Assembly: GCA_019246575.1 (NCBI GenBank)
Contig: JAFAQG010000395.1
Location: forward strand, 1-7,458
Reading direction: 5' to 3'
From: Acidobacteriaceae bacterium
GTDB taxonomy: Bacteria > Acidobacteriota > Terriglobia > Bryobacterales > Bryobacteraceae
DNA: 7,458 bases
The notes below the pieces were generated by a model that saw only the letters and a program-made list of their open reading frames with translations, made no database searches and had not been told where the DNA came from. The translations under genes were made by a program, and so were the position numbers. Below are positions 1-7,458 of this stretch, one piece after another. Each line of letters starts with the position of its first letter. Within the stretch, counting starts at the first letter, position 1.

Positions 1-767
1 TCCTTCGTCCGAGTTCGGGCGCGATTGAGGTGCTGGGTGGACCGCCGGGCAGAGATAGAGCCTTCCATATCGGCTTTCTGCCGGAAGAGCGCGGGCTGTA
101 TCGCCGTATGACAACGTTGCAGACGGTCATCTATTTCGGTCAGTTGAAAGGCCTCTCGCGCGGCGCGGCCCACACAGCTGCCACTCAACTGATCGAACGA
201 TTTGGATTAGCTCAGTTCCGCGACAGCCGGGTTGACCACCTGTCCAAGGGCATGGCGCAGAAGGTGCAGCTCGCAACGGCCTTGGTGAATGCACCGAAGT
301 TGCTGTTGCTGGACGAGCCCTTCTCCGGACTCGACCCGGTCAACCAAGCTGCTTTAGAGGACGAAATTCTCCAAGCCGCGCGTCGAGGCTCGACCGTTCT
401 GTTCTCCACTCATGTAATGGAGCACGCCGAGAGGATTTGCGCACGTCTCATCATCCTGGCAGGCGGCCGGAAAGTTTTCGACGGCGATCAGCAACAGGCC
501 AAGGCGACACTGCCGCGCCGTGTGTGGCTGCGCGCTAAGGCCGATCCATCTGGTTTGCCCGGCGTAGTGCACGCGGAACACCTGCGGTCAGCAGAAGCCG
601 GCTGGACCGACTGGCAGATTATCCTCGAACTCGGCCGCGAGCCGGGCGATCTGCTTCAAGCGTGCGTTGAACGAGGATTCGCGCTCAGAGGCTTCGAGGC
701 GCATCCTGTCAGTCTGCACGACGTCTTTCTGCACTTGGCCGGACCGCCGCCGGGACAGGCGATATGA
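1..767 (+). CDS. ABC-2 exporter ATP-binding subunit, NatA-type (5' end missing)
   Basis: This is the ATPase of an ABC exporter. It would hydrolyse ATP in the cytoplasm to power the permease encoded next. The frame is open from base 3, and residues before the first GTG (base 30) read LRPSSGAIEVLGG, the usual stretch just after Walker A, so the true start and Walker A lie upstream of the window. Visible elements in order are a Q-loop variant GFLPEERGLY (about base 72), ABC signature LSKGMAQ (240-260), Walker B LLLLDEP with D-loop SGLDP (300-335) and the H-loop STHVME (about 405-422). A C-terminal tail like DUF4162 of NatA/YhaQ-type ATPases ends in the typical LHDVFLHLAG. The variant Q-loop and signature are normal for this subgroup. 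The stop overlaps the permease start (ATGA, 764-767), which suggests translational coupling. The substrate is unknown; sodium, drug or lipid export are all possible for this family. Confidence 0.93.
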   Translation, partial: LRPSSGAIEVLGGPPGRDRAFHIGFLPEERGLYRRMTTLQTVIYFGQLKGLSRGAAHTAATQLIERFGLAQFRDSRVDHLSKGMAQKVQLATALVNAPKLLLLDEPFSGLDPVNQAALEDEILQAARRGSTVLFSTHVMEHAERICARLIILAGGRKVFDGDQQQAKATLPRRVWLRAKADPSGLPGVVHAEHLRSAEAGWTDWQIILELGREPGDLLQACVERGFALRGFEAHPVSLHDVFLHLAGPPPGQAI

Positions 768-3700
768 CACGCGCGCTGCTGATCACCGGCCGGGAATACC
801 GGCAAATGATAACCTTGCCGGCGTTCTGGATCGTTTCGCTGATCCTGCCGGTGTTCGTCCTGCTCGCTCCGATAGCGCAAACCTTTCTCAGCAAGTCAAA
901 GACCGCGAGCTATGTACTTGTAGATCGGTCCGGCCGCTACGGCGGGCAGATTCGCCGGCGTGTGGAACTCGATTACCAACGTCAGGTGTTGGTTCAGTTG
1001 TTGGTGTATGCCAATCAGTGGCGTGCGATCAACGGCACGACACCAAGTGGTCACGCCTCCGCAGAAAAACTCGCATCCTCGAGCGATGCAGCGGTCGAGA
1101 GCTTCATGGCCGCGGGTGGCGCATCGGCACTATTAAGGCAGTTGCAGCCCCGCCTCTTGCCAGGAGCGCCCCCATTTCAGCCGCCGGCTCGGGCACTCGC
1201 GGAGATCCCTGTCCCAAACGGCGTCGATACTGACACCGCCGATCGTTTCGGTGCTTCGATCGCGCATGATTTTTTGGAACCGATTAAGACCGCGACCGGC
1301 AGCGCAGCATTAGCCGCCGCTGTTTTCATACCGGCTAATGTCGATGCCGGCGGGCAAGTTCGTGTCTGGACAAACGGTCCGGCAGCCGCCCCGCTGGTTC
1401 AAGATCTGAAAATCGAACTAACCCAGAGCGCGCGACTGAGAGCGCTGAAGGCTGCGGGCCTCGATCCGCTCTCAGCCGCGCAGATCGAGAGTGTGAGTGT
1501 GCCCGTCTCAGTCAGTCCGTCCGAAACGCCTGCATCGGGCCACCAAGCCTCTGCACGTTCACTCCTGCCGCTCATGCTGGCATATCTACTGCTCGTTTCC
1601 ATGATCATTACCGGCTCCATGATGCTCCAGGGCCTCGTTGAAGAGCGCTCAAACAAACTTCTCGAGGCGGTGTTAGCGTGTGTAACCCCGCGCGAGCTGA
1701 TGGTTGGGAAGCTCTTGGGAATTTCGGCGATTGGGCTCTCAATCGTGGCGCTTTGGGTCGCGGCAGCCGTCGCGATCGTCAAAGCACAACCTTCTTCTCC
1801 CCTGAGCTTTCTCATACCCGCGCTGGTGTCCTTGTCGCGAACACCCGGAACCGGGGCGGCGATTGTTTTCTATTTCGTGGCCGGTTTTCTCGTCATCGGA
1901 ATGATCTTCCTGGGCGTGGGTCTGGTACGCGACAACATGCAGGAAGCGCAGGCTTACCTGACGCCCTTGACCCTGGTAATTGCATTGCCTTCGGTCATGT
2001 TGTCGTCGATTATCTACCGCGATCCGAATGGATTCGTGCCGCGAGCCTTCTCCTGGATTCCGATCTACACTCCTGTCACAATGCTCGCCCGGCTTCACAC
2101 TGGGGTCTCCCATGGCGAACTGTTCGGTACAGCGACAGTGTTGCTCGCCTTCGGCAGCTTGGAGGTGTTTGCGCTTACGCGCCTCTTCGAAAATAATCTT
2201 CTTCAAACGCGTCGCGGTTTCGCCATCACCCGTAACGTGCGGCCCTTGCTTCGGGTGGCGCTTGCGATCGTCCTTGTAGCCGGCGCCCTTGCAGTCCGAC
2301 ATAGTCGCGTGCGTAAAAAAACTGCCGATGCCAAGCTGAACGGCCCCGCCCATCCTGTCGCATCGAATCCAGCCGCTGACCCTCAGGCATGTTCGAACTC
2401 TGCCGCATTCAACATTAGAGAAGGCGACTGGACCGGATGGAGCATCGATCCACGGAATTGGCGGTTTCAACCACAGCCAGGTTTGACGGCACTCGAAATC
2501 TCACGCCTCAAGGTCAAGTGGGCGTTTAGCTATCCCGGCGGTAATTATGGACAGCCCGCAATCGCAGGCGGCAGGCTTTTTCTCGCTGGCAGAGGCGGCG
2601 CAATCTACTCGCTCGATGCGAAGACCGGTTGCCTGTACTGGCGGTTCGCTCACTCGACGCCGTCACGCACCACTGTCTCGGTTGGACCCCTACCGCCAGT
2701 AGCGGCAAGCGGCTATGCAGCGTATTTCGGTGATACAAGCGCAAATGTCTACGCTGTAGATGCGGCAACCGGCGCTCTTCTCTGGAAGACACAGGTCGAT
2801 TCTCATCCTCGCGCCGTGCTCACCGGCTCGCCGCTGCTCTACAAAAGTCGGCTCTACGTATCGGTTTCGTCTTACGAAGAAGGTGTTTCATCCCTCGCCG
2901 GGTACTCGTGCTGCACATTCCGCGGCAGTGTGGTCGCGCTCGAGACTGCTACCGGCAGAATCTGTTGGAAAGCTTTTGCAATCGAGCATCCTCCCTCGCC
3001 GAATCGTCAAAATAGCGCCGGTACCCAGATGTATGGTCCTGCGGGTGCTGCTGTCTGGTCCGCCCCAACTCTCGATGCCAAGCGAGGCCGTCTTTACTTC
3101 GCAACCGGCAATTCTTATACCGACGTAACAGAGAACGGGTCCGACGCGGTTGTGGCCGTCAATCTCGAGAGCGGCCGTGTGATCTGGAAACGCCAAGTGA
3201 CCGAAAGCGATAACGATCTTTCCGGCTGTGCCTCACGTCGGAAGCTGATCAATTGCCCTACGATCGAAGGTCATGATTACGACTTCGGCGCATCGCCTAT
3301 ATTGGTCCCGCTTCCGAACGGTAAGGACATTGTCGTCGCCGGGCAAAAATCCGGCGCTGTTTTCGGCATCGATCCAGATTCTGGCGCTGTCCTTTGGCGC
3401 ACTCAGGTCGGAGTCGGTGGCTTTCTCGGCGGCGTCCTATGGGGAATGGCAACGGACGGACAACGGATCTACGTCGCGAACGCCGATGTCGCCGTCTCCG
3501 AGACCGGCCGCTCGGGTCTCTTTGCTTTAAATCCCGCCACGGGCAAAGACATTTGGTATACGCCATCTCCTAAGGTCACGTGCGCTTGGGCAAGTGGGGC
3601 ACCGTGCTTTAACGCACAATCAGCCGCACCATTCGCAGTACCGGGTGTGATCTTCGCCGGCACAACCGACGGTCACGAGCGAGCTTACGCCGCGAGCGAC

Positions 3701-3901
3701 GGCCATATCCTCTGGGATTTTGATACCGCCCAGAGGACTTACCGCACAATCAATGGCATTGCCGAACAGCCGGGAGGCCCGATCGACGTCACTTCGGGAT
3801 CTCTCGCCGGCGGCATGCTCTATGTGATCTCCGGCTATCGGGGCATCCTGGGCGGACGCTCTGATAACGTGCTGTTAGCTTTCTCCGTCGATGGACGCTG
3901 A
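764..3901 (+). CDS. Fusion of ABC-2 permease (NatB-type) with PQQ/PVA-dehydrogenase-like beta-propeller
   Basis: One uninterrupted frame encodes 1,045 residues where NatB-type permeases usually have about 400-450. Residues 1-490 form a complete permease: TM1 (about 19-42), a large outside loop (44-264), then TMs near 266-290, 312-338, 364-387, 398-418 and 452-475, with the ABC-2 hallmark VEERSNKLLEAVL at 292-304. An extra hydrophobic segment (493-511) follows. Residues 542-1045 resemble polyvinyl-alcohol dehydrogenase: opening GDWTGWSIDPRNWRFQ, vicinal cysteines C716-C717 in SCCTFRG, TGN (781-783) and DYDFG (838-842), which by eye match PQQ/calcium-site regions of quinoprotein dehydrogenases. 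Seven [DNEA]xxx-G-xxx-W motifs end at W626, 674, 735, 808, 878, 931 and 984. With the opening strand (W586) this implies eight blades. No CxxCH heme motif exists. ATG 764 overlaps the ATPase stop and has an AGG six bases upstream. The even number of permease spans plus TM7 puts the propeller in the periplasm. Joint function is unknown; dehydrogenase activity is inference. Confidence 0.9.
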   Translation: MTRALLITGREYRQMITLPAFWIVSLILPVFVLLAPIAQTFLSKSKTASYVLVDRSGRYGGQIRRRVELDYQRQVLVQLLVYANQWRAINGTTPSGHASAEKLASSSDAAVESFMAAGGASALLRQLQPRLLPGAPPFQPPARALAEIPVPNGVDTDTADRFGASIAHDFLEPIKTATGSAALAAAVFIPANVDAGGQVRVWTNGPAAAPLVQDLKIELTQSARLRALKAAGLDPLSAAQIESVSVPVSVSPSETPASGHQASARSLLPLMLAYLLLVSMIITGSMMLQGLVEERSNKLLEAVLACVTPRELMVGKLLGISAIGLSIVALWVAAAVAIVKAQPSSPLSFLIPALVSLSRTPGTGAAIVFYFVAGFLVIGMIFLGVGLVRDNMQEAQAYLTPLTLVIALPSVMLSSIIYRDPNGFVPRAFSWIPIYTPVTMLARLHTGVSHGELFGTATVLLAFGSLEVFALTRLFENNLLQTRRGFAITRNVRPLLRVALAIVLVAGALAVRHSRVRKKTADAKLNGPAHPVASNPAADPQACSNSAAFNIREGDWTGWSIDPRNWRFQPQPGLTALEISRLKVKWAFSYPGGNYGQPAIAGGRLFLAGRGGAIYSLDAKTGCLYWRFAHSTPSRTTVSVGPLPPVAASGYAAYFGDTSANVYAVDAATGALLWKTQVDSHPRAVLTGSPLLYKSRLYVSVSSYEEGVSSLAGYSCCTFRGSVVALETATGRICWKAFAIEHPPSPNRQNSAGTQMYGPAGAAVWSAPTLDAKRGRLYFATGNSYTDVTENGSDAVVAVNLESGRVIWKRQVTESDNDLSGCASRRKLINCPTIEGHDYDFGASPILVPLPNGKDIVVAGQKSGAVFGIDPDSGAVLWRTQVGVGGFLGGVLWGMATDGQRIYVANADVAVSETGRSGLFALNPATGKDIWYTPSPKVTCAWASGAPCFNAQSAAPFAVPGVIFAGTTDGHERAYAASDGHILWDFDTAQRTYRTINGIAEQPGGPIDVTSGSLAGGMLYVISGYRGILGGRSDNVLLAFSVDGR
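2240..2296 (+). other. Linker membrane segment of the fusion protein (embedded signal-anchor)
   Basis: Codons 493-511 of the fusion gene encode a positively charged start (RPLLR) followed by a hydrophobic core (VALAIVLVAGALAV). This looks like the signal peptide or anchor a free-standing periplasmic propeller would carry. The preceding permease ends with ARG-rich cytoplasmic sequence (TRLFENNLLQTRRGF), typical of where NatB-type permeases finish. The residues after the segment (RHSRVRKK) are also basic, which is unusual for a periplasmic flank and makes the orientation less certain. GTG codons at 2237 and 2255 could in principle start a separate propeller protein, but neither has a recognisable ribosome binding site. 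Confidence 0.7.
2315..2321 (+). other. A7 tract at the fusion joint (possible slippage site)
   Basis: Seven adenines lie between the linker membrane segment and the propeller and encode K518-K519 plus the first base of T520. Loss of one A would give a TGA at 2337-2339, after five foreign residues. Gain of one A would give a TGA at 2377-2379. Either event would release a permease with the linker span but no propeller (about 524 or 538 residues). A7 is long enough to be a plausible RNA-polymerase slippage site, but slippage here is inference only. Confidence 0.35.
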
Positions 3902-3976: not shown

Positions 3977-5380
3977 CTAGGGCGACCGTAAACCGCGGCC
4001 CGGATACACGCCCGGCTGGATTTCCCCCTTTTTCACCACCCACACTCCATTTACCATCACGTAGGGAATGCCCTCCGAGTATTGCGCCGGGTTCTCAAAG
4101 CTCGCTCTGTCTACCACACGCTCCGGGTCGAATACCGTGATATCGGCATCAGCCCCCATTTGCAACCGGCCTTTGTTCGGCATGTTCAGGCGTACCGCAG
4201 GCAAGAGACTCATCTTTCGCAATGCGTCGATCATAGACAGAACATGCTGTTCGCGCACATACTTGGCCAGCACCCGCGCGTACGTTCCAGCCGCCCTCGG
4301 ATGCCCCTTTCCGTTTTGCAGGATGCCATCGCTCGCGATCATCACGTCCGGATTTGCCATGACGGTTCTCACGACGTCTTCTGGGATGTGATAGATCGCT
4401 ACCATACCGCCCTGCTTCCGATACCGGGCAAATGACTCTGCAGTTAGCCGCTCGCCCGTAGCTGCCCACTGAAGGTCCTTATACGTGATGCCGAGGCGCT
4501 GCTGCCATCCGTCCGCAAAAATCGCCGAACCTAAATCGGTCATACTCGCGGTGTACGGATACGCTTCCGTCGTGAAGTCGAGCTTGTGCTCGTGTGCGCC
4601 GCCAATCATCGCCAGCGCCAGGGAAACCGCCTCGACCTCAGTGCTGGCAATGTGAACTACGTGCAATGAAGCCCCGCTTGCCGCAGCATCGGCCATCACC
4701 TCCTGCAATCCGGCAATCCCGCCTGGCTCAACAAGCCCGGCTGTACGCAGATGCACGTATACCGGCGTCTTCCGTACCGACGCCACTTGGAACACGCGAA
4801 AAATCTCCTCACGGCTCGCGCCGGGAACGTATGCAATGCCCATGCCGATTCCAAGTGCGTGTTCATCTAGACCGCGCCGGATTAGCGTAAGAATCTGCTC
4901 GATCTGTTCGGGAGTCGCGGGAGTATTGACGGCCCGATCGCGCGGCAAGAAAGTGCCCGTATCATGCATCACCGCCATGCGCACCGGAATGTGCCCGACC
5001 GTCGCGCCGTAATTGATCAGTGCCTTACCCTCACGTTCCCGATACCACGCATCAACCGGCGAAACGCCGGCTTCCATTTCGAGTGCGGTCGTCACGCCAT
5101 CGCGTGCCTTGAAACCATAGTTCTCGGACGTTTGACCGTGCTGGTGCAAGTCGATGAAACCCGCCGTCACCATCAGCCCGCGCGCATCGATCGTTTCTCT
5201 GCCGGTAAGCGGTTTTTCTGAAACGGCTACAATTTTGCCGTTTCTAATCCCCACATCGCGAATGGCGTCGAGCTTCGTCTCCGGATCGATCGCCCGTCCG
5301 CGCGAAATCACGATGTCGTACTGCTGGGCCGCTACACCAAGGCAGAACGTCCATAGGACCACAACCAGTCTCATAGTCAT
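3977..5380 (-). CDS. Secreted amidohydrolase, N-acyl-D-amino-acid deacylase (D-aminoacylase)-like
   Basis: The product (467 residues) is a metal-dependent hydrolase of the amidohydrolase superfamily, close in layout to D-aminoacylases, which remove the acyl group from N-acyl-D-amino acids. A short Sec signal peptide opens it (MTMRLVVVLW, core to about residue 18, likely cut near VAA-QQ), so it should act in the periplasm. Visible parts are a small beta-sandwich start (DIVISRGRAIDPET), the metal HxH as H79-Q-H81 in FIDLHQHGQ, H210 (YVHLRTAG), H243 (VVHIAST), catalytic-type D351 in ASDG, family block HPRAAGTYARVLAKYVRE (360-377) and the C-terminal sandwich MGADADITVFDPE. Where the bridging-metal cysteine of classical D-aminoacylase sits (GVTTVV-GNCG type), this one reads GVTTALEMEAG with E101/E103, so it may belong to a separate subgroup. 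The second ATG (codon 3, 5371-5373) is an alternative start; neither has a clear Shine-Dalgarno. It converges on the fusion gene and diverges from the MFS gene. Exact substrate is uncertain. Confidence 0.88.
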   Translation of the reverse strand: MTMRLVVVLWTFCLGVAAQQYDIVISRGRAIDPETKLDAIRDVGIRNGKIVAVSEKPLTGRETIDARGLMVTAGFIDLHQHGQTSENYGFKARDGVTTALEMEAGVSPVDAWYREREGKALINYGATVGHIPVRMAVMHDTGTFLPRDRAVNTPATPEQIEQILTLIRRGLDEHALGIGMGIAYVPGASREEIFRVFQVASVRKTPVYVHLRTAGLVEPGGIAGLQEVMADAAASGASLHVVHIASTEVEAVSLALAMIGGAHEHKLDFTTEAYPYTASMTDLGSAIFADGWQQRLGITYKDLQWAATGERLTAESFARYRKQGGMVAIYHIPEDVVRTVMANPDVMIASDGILQNGKGHPRAAGTYARVLAKYVREQHVLSMIDALRKMSLLPAVRLNMPNKGRLQMGADADITVFDPERVVDRASFENPAQYSEGIPYVMVNGVWVVKKGEIQPGVYPGRGLRSP

Positions 5381-5461: not shown

Positions 5462-6724
5462 ATGAGCGACCCGCTAGAAACCGAGAGGGCACGCATTCAG
5501 CAGCGCTCGCGCGCAACATCGAACCGGACTCGATTCCGATGGCTCGTTGCCGGGCTGCTTCTAGGTTCGACCATCATAAACTACATCGACCGGCAGACGC
5601 TGAGCGTATTGGCCCCCTATCTGAAGGTCGAATTCAAATGGTCCAATTCCGATTTCGCGTTAATCATTGTTTCCTTCCGCCTCGCGTATACGATTTTTCA
5701 GCTCATAGCCGGACGGATTATGGATCTCCTCGGAACGAAGCGCGGGCTGTCGCTTGCTGTTCTGTGGTATTCGATTGCCGCAATGGTAAGTTCGCTCGCT
5801 GTCGGGCTGAAGAGTTTCGCAGTGTGCCGGTTTTTGCTTGGCGCTGGCGAGGGCGGCAACTGGCCTGGCGCAACAAAGACCGTCGCCGAATGGTTTCCGA
5901 AAGCGGAGCGTGGTTTGGCTGTCGCGATGTTCGACAGCGGCTCCGCCGTCGGTGGCGCAATTGCGCCCGCGCTCGTTGTATGGCTCTACGCCGCATTCGG
6001 AACCTGGAGGCCCGCCTTCGTCATTACCGGCATGCTGGGCCTGATATGGCTGACAGCCTGGCGTCTCATCTATAGATCGCCCGAAGTCCGCCAGGAAGAT
6101 GAGGCTCCAGCCACCACCGGCAATCGGTGGGGAGCTCTTCTGAGCCTGCCCCAGACTTGGGGAATTGTGCTCGGAAAAGGTTTAACCGATCCGGTATGGT
6201 TCTTCATCACCGACTGGTTCGCAATTTATCTTGTGTCCCGAGGTTTCAAACTAGAAAACACACTCGCCGGTTTTTGGGTGCCGTTTATCGCTGCCGATTT
6301 AGGAAACTTCGCTGGCGGAGGGCTTTCGAGCTTCTGCATCAAGCGCGGCTGGCCGGTATTGAAGGCCAGGAAGTTAGTCATCGCACTCGGGGCCGCCGGC
6401 ATGATGATGCTTTCATGCACCATTGCAGTCGCAAGCTTTCCGGTGTTGATCGGGCTTTTTGCGATTGCAACGTTTGCCTACGCAGCACTCTCGACCATGC
6501 TGCTGACCCTTCCTGCCGATCTTTATGCGCCGGAATCTGTCGCCACCGTCAGTGGAATGAGTGGCGCAGCCGCGGGAATCGGAACCATGATCTCTACCTT
6601 CCTGATCGGAAGAGTGACGGATCGTTTCTCCTTCGCACCCATAGTCATTGCCGCTAGTCTCGTTCCGGTATTCGCTACGCTCCTCGTTTTTGGCCTAATT
6701 AACAAACGAAACTCGCCCGACTGA
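5462..6724 (+). CDS. MFS transporter, anion:cation symporter (ACS/ExuT-like) family
   Basis: This 420-residue inner-membrane carrier has the size and twelve-span layout of major facilitator superfamily symporters. It most resembles the anion:cation symporter family, which includes the hexuronate transporter ExuT and tends to move organic acid anions with protons. Visible marks are [16 protein letters not shown] in the first span (about 39-54), the loop 2-3 motif [12 protein letters not shown] (84-95), and the strongly conserved [14 protein letters not shown] block (123-136) followed by EWFPKAERG (143-151). A charged central loop (about 205-222) separates the two halves, and a second-half motif GRVTDRF lies at 383-389. 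ATG 5462 leaves a 25-residue basic cytoplasmic tail before the first span; there is no clear ribosome binding site. It sits between two secreted amidohydrolases and may take up the acid product of one of them. A hexuronate substrate should not be assumed. Confidence 0.92.
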
Positions 6725-6767: not shown

Positions 6768-7458
6768 ATGCGCCCATTCCGCATAACACGTCGGACAGCA
6801 GTTTTCACGCTCCTCTGCGCTTTTCCCGCCGTCGCGCAACACGCCGACACCGTTTTTTACAACGGCAAGATCATAACGATGTGGGATCAGCATCCCACGG
6901 TCCAGGCGGTAGCGATCCGAGGTGACAAGTTTGTCGCCGTGGGCAGCGGCGCCGATGTTCTGAAGACTGCGGACGCAAACACACGAAAAATCGATCTTTA
7001 CGGCCGCTGCGTTCTGCCGGGACTCATCGAAGGGCATGTGCATCCCATCACGGCAGCATTAAGCGAGATCGATGGCCCCATTCCGGTATTTCACTCTATT
7101 CCCGAGATACAGGCGTACATTCGCGAACAGGCGAGAAAGCTTCCGAAAGGGCAGATCATTTTCGTTCCGAAGGTTTACGCAACGCGTCTCGCCGAGCGGC
7201 GATACCCAACTCGGCAAGAAATCGACGCCGCCGCAGGTTCTCGTGAAGCTGTCGTGGATAACGGTTACGCTTCGGTGCTCGATTCTGCCATGCTTCAGCA
7301 CGTCGGCATAACGCGCGACACACCGCAGCCTACGAACGGGCGAATAGTGAAAGAAGAGAGTGGCGAACCCACAGGGTTAGTTCTCGGCGGGCCGCAGATT
7401 CTGGCTAAAGTTCGCGAACCTCGGCCGGTTACGCCAAAGGATCGCTTATGGGCGCTCA
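6768..7458 (+). CDS. Secreted YtcJ-like amidohydrolase (amidohydrolase_3 family), 3' end missing
   Basis: The frame opens at ATG 6768 and stays open to the window edge, giving 230 of probably 540-600 residues. It begins with a signal peptide, MRPFRITRRTAVFTLLCAFP, with likely cleavage after AVA (residues 21-23). The twin arginine in TRRTAVF loosely recalls a Tat signal but Sec is as likely. The mature protein starts with the beta-sandwich strand DTVFYNGKIITMW and reaches the metal-binding HxH as H90-V-H92 in LPGLIEGHVHP. PTRQEIDAAAG (147-157) and GRIVKEESGEPTGLVLGG (191-208) follow the YtcJ/exoenzyme-regulatory-protein-like layout, whose members hydrolyse amide or formamide bonds; many are uncharacterised. 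The usual DGHxxxxNS segment reads NGYASVLDS (165-173), so a conserved histidine is replaced by tyrosine. No Shine-Dalgarno is visible. It lies 43 bases behind the MFS gene on the same strand, so co-transcription is possible. Catalytic residues beyond the window cannot be checked. Confidence 0.88.
   Translation, partial: MRPFRITRRTAVFTLLCAFPAVAQHADTVFYNGKIITMWDQHPTVQAVAIRGDKFVAVGSGADVLKTADANTRKIDLYGRCVLPGLIEGHVHPITAALSEIDGPIPVFHSIPEIQAYIREQARKLPKGQIIFVPKVYATRLAERRYPTRQEIDAAAGSREAVVDNGYASVLDSAMLQHVGITRDTPQPTNGRIVKEESGEPTGLVLGGPQILAKVREPRPVTPKDRLWAL

Follow-up and report, generated by a model that had tools for sequence, protein, structure and literature searches.

An ABC-2 exporter permease joined in one polypeptide to a PVA-dehydrogenase-like quinoprotein propeller

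Comparison with described systems

Exporters and periplasmic quinoprotein dehydrogenases are each well studied separately. The gene treated here combines the two. It lies at 764..3901 on the forward strand of a 7,458-nucleotide stretch of contig JAFAQG010000395.1, from an Acidobacteriaceae assembly (GCA_019246575.1); the whole stretch is termed the window. One open frame of 1,045 residues encodes an ABC-2 permease of the ATP-binding cassette (ABC) class, a seventh membrane span, a linker and an eight-bladed propeller of the pyrroloquinoline quinone (PQQ) type. Permease and propeller occur together in 49 full-length proteins, 993–1,128 residues in length (P0001–P0049, window included). The literature search gave no account of an exporter permease and a periplasmic quinoprotein dehydrogenase in one polypeptide, which is weak evidence of novelty, as subscription journals were scarcely covered. 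The fusion is apparently an undescribed domain architecture, new in its combination of known kinds of parts.

The propeller is compared with the polyvinyl alcohol (PVA) dehydrogenase (cytochrome) of Sphingopyxis sp. 113P3, encoded by plasmid gene LH20_RS22175 and 44.8% identical over window residues 556–1045. The record reads PQQ-binding-like beta-propeller repeat protein; the product is taken here to be the characterised PVA dehydrogenase. Shared characters are the eight-bladed PQQ-type propeller and a vicinal cysteine pair at the same place. In PVA dehydrogenase a cytochrome c domain precedes the propeller on the N-terminal side, as in 40 of the 49 fused proteins, whereas the window protein has no CXXCH. 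The 113P3 enzyme begins with a hydrophobic N-terminus and the cytochrome; the window protein begins with the permease and has seven spans. The secretion signal and free periplasmic form of PVA dehydrogenase are thus not matched, as permease and span 7 precede the window propeller. A further difference is the motif D-F-S in the 113P3 protein (locus L085, 4494–6509) where fused and sampled free relatives have D-x-D, which suggests, from the aligned residues, different metal use within the PVA-dehydrogenase-type family.

Two other quinoprotein families were rejected. The model of classical PQQ alcohol dehydrogenases (TIGR03075) gave 94.9 bits against a cut-off of 480.05, and the classical vicinal cysteines (C125–C126 of ethanol dehydrogenase) align within the cysteine-free stretch PSRTTVSVG, the window pair lying at 716–717. 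The Acido-empty-quinoprotein model (TIGR04528) gave 68.3 bits against 650.

NatB-type (PF12698) permeases with NatA/DrrA-like ATPases have the same six spans, a large domain between spans 1 and 2 and an ATPase gene directly upstream. The unfused relatives inspected end after span 6 at about 500 residues; the window protein adds about 560. NF041647, the ABC permease fused to a CPBP protease, is the only NCBIfam family found for the permease part at E ≤ 1 (29.2 bits). Its members resemble the fusion in joining an extra C-terminal domain to an ABC-2 permease, but the cut-off of 435 is not reached and the partner is an intramembrane protease.

PedA1A2BC of Pseudomonas putida is described as a lanthanide ABC transporter that includes a beta-propeller protein and is associated with a PQQ dehydrogenase (PMC6839425, PMC12997753). 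It likewise unites ABC permease, ATPase, beta-propeller protein and PQQ dehydrogenase in one system, but these are separate genes, the propeller is of YVTN type and is not the dehydrogenase, and import is proposed. The model TIGR03864 (PQQ_ABC_ATP), which presumably stands for PedB, does not reach its cut-off on the window ATPase (88.8 against 302.25 bits); a PedC permease model is also presumed to exist in NCBIfam, but at E ≤ 1 the permease part matches no family there other than NF041647.

Organization of the fusion gene

The NatB-type permease comprises residues 1–482 (764..2209) according to Pfam and the structure model, with a PF12698 score of 103.8 bits (gathering cut-off 31.6). Spans are six, at model helices 19–42, 268–305, 309–341, 361–388, 392–419 and 450–479, and hydropathy peaks are found there too. 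The large domain modelled between spans 1 and 2 (residues 43–267, 890..1564) would be extracytoplasmic by analogy with the NatB layout. Six spans, a large domain after span 1 and an overlapping upstream ATPase gene characterise the permease as NatB-type. Span 7 (residues 490–514, 2231..2305) is seen in both model and hydropathy. The linker (residues 515–555, 2306..2428) is without predicted secondary structure; it is the site of the cytochrome in the 40 proteins that bear one. The PVA-dehydrogenase-like quinoprotein propeller takes up residues 556–1045 (2429..3898). All these features are on the forward strand. Similarity lists (Foldseek, VIA) were filled by the propeller. A sequence-only reading of the window had described one frame with a NatB-type permease and a PVA-dehydrogenase-like eight-bladed propeller with vicinal cysteines; the frame is open over 764–3901 and both domains are matched.

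The same reading had assigned to a seventh span the delivery of the propeller to the periplasm, and the family agrees with this. Counts out of 48 leave aside P0048, which has a frameshifted propeller end and was omitted from trees, conservation counts and identity correlation. A hydrophobic segment at span 7 is present in 48/48 (hydropathy 1.43–2.91). The flank on the N side has the higher positive charge in 43, the same in four and the lower in one, as expected for a span with N-terminus inside and C-terminus outside. Span 7 would thus carry the C-terminal propeller to the periplasm, an orientation supported by the aligned family. Cytochrome c attachment and disulfides would likewise require the periplasm. 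In the alignment of fused and free enzymes, span 7 coincides with the N-terminal signal region of free PVA-dehydrogenase-type enzymes and is probably derived from a signal peptide.

Distribution of the fused architecture

A search for homologues of the same two-domain architecture, proposed in the sequence-only reading, gave at least 48 other full-length proteins. The whole-protein search covered 5.8 billion proteins; 7,998 candidates were scored and 3,151 matched, the best 120 being listed. With about 8,000 candidates scored per search, 49 is a lower bound. Searched with residues 1–500, proteins of 575–1,829 residues gave 59 matches, namely the same 49 and ten shorter ones. Both permease and propeller Pfam families are listed for 57 of the 59; P0061 breaks off in the first part of the propeller, and in P0121 the frame is lost within the cytochrome.

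Among the best 120 of 181 matches to the permease alone, an identity gap separates fused-kind from unfused proteins. Fused-kind proteins are mostly 55–74% identical to the window permease (fragment P0143, 51%); unfused permeases, about 480–506 residues long, are 38–46% identical. All six unfused permeases whose C-termini were inspected stop directly after span 6. Unfused relatives follow an ATPase gene in three genomes (26–29% identical) and on a plasmid (39%).

Source names of the fused proteins include Acidobacteriia, Steroidobacteraceae and Xanthobacteraceae assemblies. Many are labelled polyvinyl alcohol dehydrogenase (cytochrome) at the source, a label that gives no hint of the transporter half. 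As far as database proteins tell, the fusion family is real, conserved and established in environmental sequences.

Partial and frameshifted copies occur. P0122–P0126 (540–568 residues) look like split permeases; by eye their frames shift between span 6 and the cytochrome. P0056 and P0057 seem to break the frame in the propeller, and P0128 is labelled partial at the source. P0129 (548 residues) ends shortly after span 7 and P0134 after the cytochrome; these two may represent the fusion in split or truncated form. A consistent split of the homologues near codon 490 would have spoken against a fused protein; 49 proteins are unsplit, in a permease-half search that listed only proteins of at least 575 residues, P0129 and P0134 remaining as possible split forms.

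Genome and replicon searches gave free enzymes and unfused permeases. A scan with permease patterns for fused loci gave 133 pattern matches and no relative. A scan with an alignment of fused and free enzymes gave 165 relatives, of which the best 80, at 79 loci, match only from about residue 448; no matching permease is present in the flanks (up to 6 kb) of these 79 free PVA-dehydrogenase loci. In 12 of these genomes, searched with the full fused alignment, only the cytochrome–propeller part was matched. Permease searches of 11, 296, 396, 385, 250 and 150 whole genomes (E-values 1e-70, 1e-70, 1e-45, 1e-45, 1e-60 and 1e-60; the last two sets share genomes) gave 0, 0, 1, 2, 0 and 0 matches, the three matches being without a propeller; the empty searches say little, as only part of the candidates was scored and no genome known to carry the fusion was included. 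Viral contigs gave 91 pattern matches and no relative. Partial matches to the protein are present in 53 records of the plasmid collection; none covers 80% of it, and no near DNA match to the window was found.

Common history of the two halves

Trees of both halves were of a quick type, built without cytochrome columns, and carry support from the Shimodaira–Hasegawa-like approximate likelihood ratio test (SH-aLRT) only. The 24 free rows were hand-picked from 59 listed free proteins, and the 24 unfused rows, likewise by hand, from the unfused proteins among the best 120 of 181 permease matches. One branch separates 48 fused from 24 free proteins in the propeller tree (SH-aLRT 99%), and one branch separates 48 fused from 24 unfused proteins in the permease tree (SH-aLRT 100%). 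On both trees the fusion appears to have happened once. Pairwise identities in the permease and in the propeller correlate with r = 0.95, a value reached in 0 of 999 permutations. Mean identity is 75% for the propeller and 66% for the permease, and is higher for the propeller in 99.6% of pairs. This higher conservation speaks against decay and, together with the correlation, suggests that both halves are held as one unit. The data support two apparently competent halves joined for a long time. Chance gene joining, which the sequence-only reading had left as a possibility, does not fit a fusion common to 49 proteins and confined to one branch in both trees.

Cofactor site

The window protein has an eight-bladed PQQ-type propeller with the conserved cofactor-site residues of PVA dehydrogenase. 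E705, C716, C717, W765, D838, D840 and K862 are invariant in 48/48 fused and 24/24 sampled free proteins, including 8/8 fused proteins without cytochrome. E705 (2876..2878) is aligned by hhalign with the Glu of SGGEFG in an annotated PQQ ethanol dehydrogenase, presumably a metal ligand. C716–C717 (2909..2914) is the vicinal cysteine pair of the PVA dehydrogenase family. W765 (3056..3058) is aligned with a Trp of known quinoproteins, taken to stack on PQQ, and N783 (3110..3112) with the Asn of TGN, again presumably a metal ligand. D838-Y-D840 (3275..3283), the proposed catalytic Asp and a second Asp, is placed by HMMER alignment to PDB entry 9m2c, and K862 (3347..3349) is aligned with a Lys of 9m2c and 4mh1, assumed to contact PQQ. 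All are on the forward strand. E705, W765 and N783 are thus placed by hhalign to a single ethanol dehydrogenase, and D838, D840 and K862 by HMMER alignments to the two PDB entries together with their invariance, that is, by profile alignment and not by coordinates. The hhalign alignment gave no sensible placement for the stretch D838–K862; the PVA-dehydrogenase-like family has an insertion there. Asp to Lys/Arg spacing, counted by hand on that alignment, is 24 versus 23. By this profile placement D838-Y-D840 resembles the lanthanide-type D-x-D motif, described as a lanthanide-binding signature in PMC11996626.

Position 783 varies: it is Asn in 44/48 fused proteins and Asp in 24/24 sampled free enzymes. 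The fused proteins with Asp (P0032, P0042–P0044) form the deepest branches of the fused part of the propeller tree, with a modest support of 83–84%; the replacement by Asn therefore probably came after the fusion.

Cytochrome c domain and its loss

Between span 7 and the propeller, 40 of the 49 fused proteins have a c-type cytochrome, with CXXCH at residues 529–550 and a Met kept 34–38 residues further on in 40/40. Nine proteins, the window protein among them, are without CXXCH. All 59 listed free relatives (P0062–P0120) have CXXCH near the N-terminus. Eight of their N-termini were scanned, and the best 19-residue hydropathy of 0.83–2.69 shows a clear signal in most, though not all. As CXXCH occurs in all listed free relatives and in 40 fused proteins, the original form is read as a quinohemoprotein. 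Most likely, by these alignments, the fused form arose by joining a permease gene to the gene of a cytochrome-bearing PVA-dehydrogenase-type enzyme, the signal peptide becoming span 7.

Absence of the cytochrome (8 of 48 rows) needs seven changes on each tree, and well supported branches require at least five of them. On both trees its scatter is about that of shuffled labels. As all listed free relatives have the cytochrome, these changes are read as losses, about seven in number. Remnants differ, P0042 retaining both ends of the domain and P0007 almost nothing, which fits separate deletions. P0005, without cytochrome, is 92% identical overall to P0012, with cytochrome; repeated loss at identities up to this value provides a natural comparison for the purpose of a built-in electron acceptor. 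Of the sequence-only reading, the two-domain protein and span 7 have stood and chance joining has not; the cytochrome c domain and its repeated loss were not foreseen in it.

Proposed function

The preferred reading, held at a probability of roughly 0.45, is an ABC exporter permease with a membrane-tethered periplasmic PQQ dehydrogenase, by which an alcohol group would be oxidised at the exit or close to it. The permease, taken as a homodimer, would pump its substrate out with the ATPase of the overlapping upstream gene, and the tethered dehydrogenase, if occupied by PQQ, would oxidise an alcohol group of that substrate; an alternative target would be a periplasmic compound whose oxidation product has to be kept at a distance. 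Ancestrally, PQQ would hand its electrons to the fused cytochrome c, from which they would reach the respiratory chain. In the window form, where the cytochrome domain has been lost, a separate cytochrome c or another acceptor would take them. Export with oxidation outside is the most economical reading, and both halves may then act on one substrate. A more specific version is possible but doubtful: a transporter oxidising its departing cargo by a lanthanide-type quinohemoprotein wired to the respiratory chain, with ATP spent and electrons recovered, several lineages including that of the window now using a diffusible acceptor. Should the two activities be coupled, a single molecule would bring together export and respiration.

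Several points weigh against the preferred reading. The main one against tight coupling is that the electron-accepting domain has been lost repeatedly, which closely coupled electron transfer would hardly allow; the losses make more sense if a separate cytochrome c can take its place or if the propeller became a sensor. A c-type cytochrome gene is present two genes after the PVA-dehydrogenase-type gene in Sphingopyxis 113P3. The window protein is the sole case with a reversed flank (4 versus 5), and its span 7, taken by itself, does not follow the positive-inside rule. The structure model (predicted template modelling score 0.54) is uninformative on how permease and propeller face each other, and a search of PDB chains with the permease profile gave no match at E ≤ 1. 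The unfused permease relatives inspected have no adjacent dehydrogenase of the PVA-dehydrogenase kind. The window, the one locus from which gene context of the fused form is known, has no substrate-naming neighbour; the next genes are amidohydrolases and a carrier of the major facilitator superfamily (MFS), the nearest on the opposite strand.

The loss of the cytochrome also bears on a second explanation, judged unlikely, in which the propeller is a periplasmic sensor that binds PQQ, a metal, an alcohol or a redox partner and, without steady turnover, controls gating of the exporter via span 7. Binding without electron removal permits about seven losses with a PQQ site invariant in 8/8 cytochrome-less proteins, and the window linker begins at the membrane and has only about 40 residues. 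A pure sensor, however, would have no need of the cytochrome that 40/49 keep with CXXCH and Met, and a linker predicted without structure is a poor gating lever.

The same unstructured linker gives no rigid interface, as would be expected if the fusion merely serves to anchor the dehydrogenase and to keep its level in step with the exporter, the activities being otherwise independent. Span 7 sits at the signal region of free PVA-dehydrogenase-type enzymes, and the fused form would result at once if the stop codon between two adjacent genes were lost; P0129 and P0134, if split copies, would also favour anchoring. This explanation is nevertheless rather improbable in view of the long retention with joint variation of the halves and of the 0/79 free loci with such a permease in the flank, by which no neighbour pair is seen today.

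Service in the reverse direction is a good deal less probable: the transporter would move a metal, metal carrier or cofactor for a D-x-D quinoprotein, as PedA1A2BC serves PedH. The fused set has D838-x-D840 without exception, and D-x-D is in use as a lanthanide-binding signature (PMC11996626); in PedA1A2BC itself an ABC transporter and a beta-propeller protein are associated with a PQQ dehydrogenase (PMC6839425). The permease, however, matches only the permease/CPBP model of NCBIfam at E ≤ 1, and the ATPase stays far below the PQQ_ABC_ATP cut-off. Free PVA-dehydrogenase-type enzymes share the D-x-D, yet no such transporter stands beside them at the 79 loci. PedA1A2BC has a substrate-binding protein, and none is seen in the window, which is itself short.

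An artefact or a recent functionless accident, to which a single 7.5 kb contig and the existence of frameshifted relatives might point, deserves hardly any credence. For the family it is refuted by the 48 further full-length fused proteins, which come from several sources, and by the invariance of the PQQ-site residues.

Neighbouring genes

The ABC ATPase gene (3..767, forward strand) has a PF00005 score of 53.1 bits; its 5' end lies beyond the window edge and Walker A outside the window. Motifs read by eye are the signature LSKGMAQ at 240–260 and Walker B LLLLDEPFSGLDP from 300. The best NCBIfam match is drrA, with 119.4 bits under a cut-off of 312.45. The stop codon TGA overlaps the ATG of the fusion gene as ATGA at 764–767.

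Downstream of the fusion gene are an amidohydrolase gene on the reverse strand (3977–5380; NF006560, 544.5 bits, over the cut-off of 340), presumably D-aminoacylase-like, an MFS carrier gene (5462–6724, forward strand) and a second amidohydrolase gene (6768–7458, forward strand), cut by the end of the window. Amidohydrolases and MFS carrier look like a separate catabolic set.

Free PVA-dehydrogenase-type enzymes of the genome scan are mostly from Acidobacteria and other environmental assemblies. Assemblies titled Terriglobia (G003) and Caulobacteraceae (G009) have 12 matches each to such enzymes, two of those in G009 adjoining at C1:190310-194068 (region of locus L002). Such enzymes are also encoded in metagenome-assembled sequences titled Klebsiella pneumoniae (L070) and Bordetella parapertussis (L077), titles that may be misassigned.

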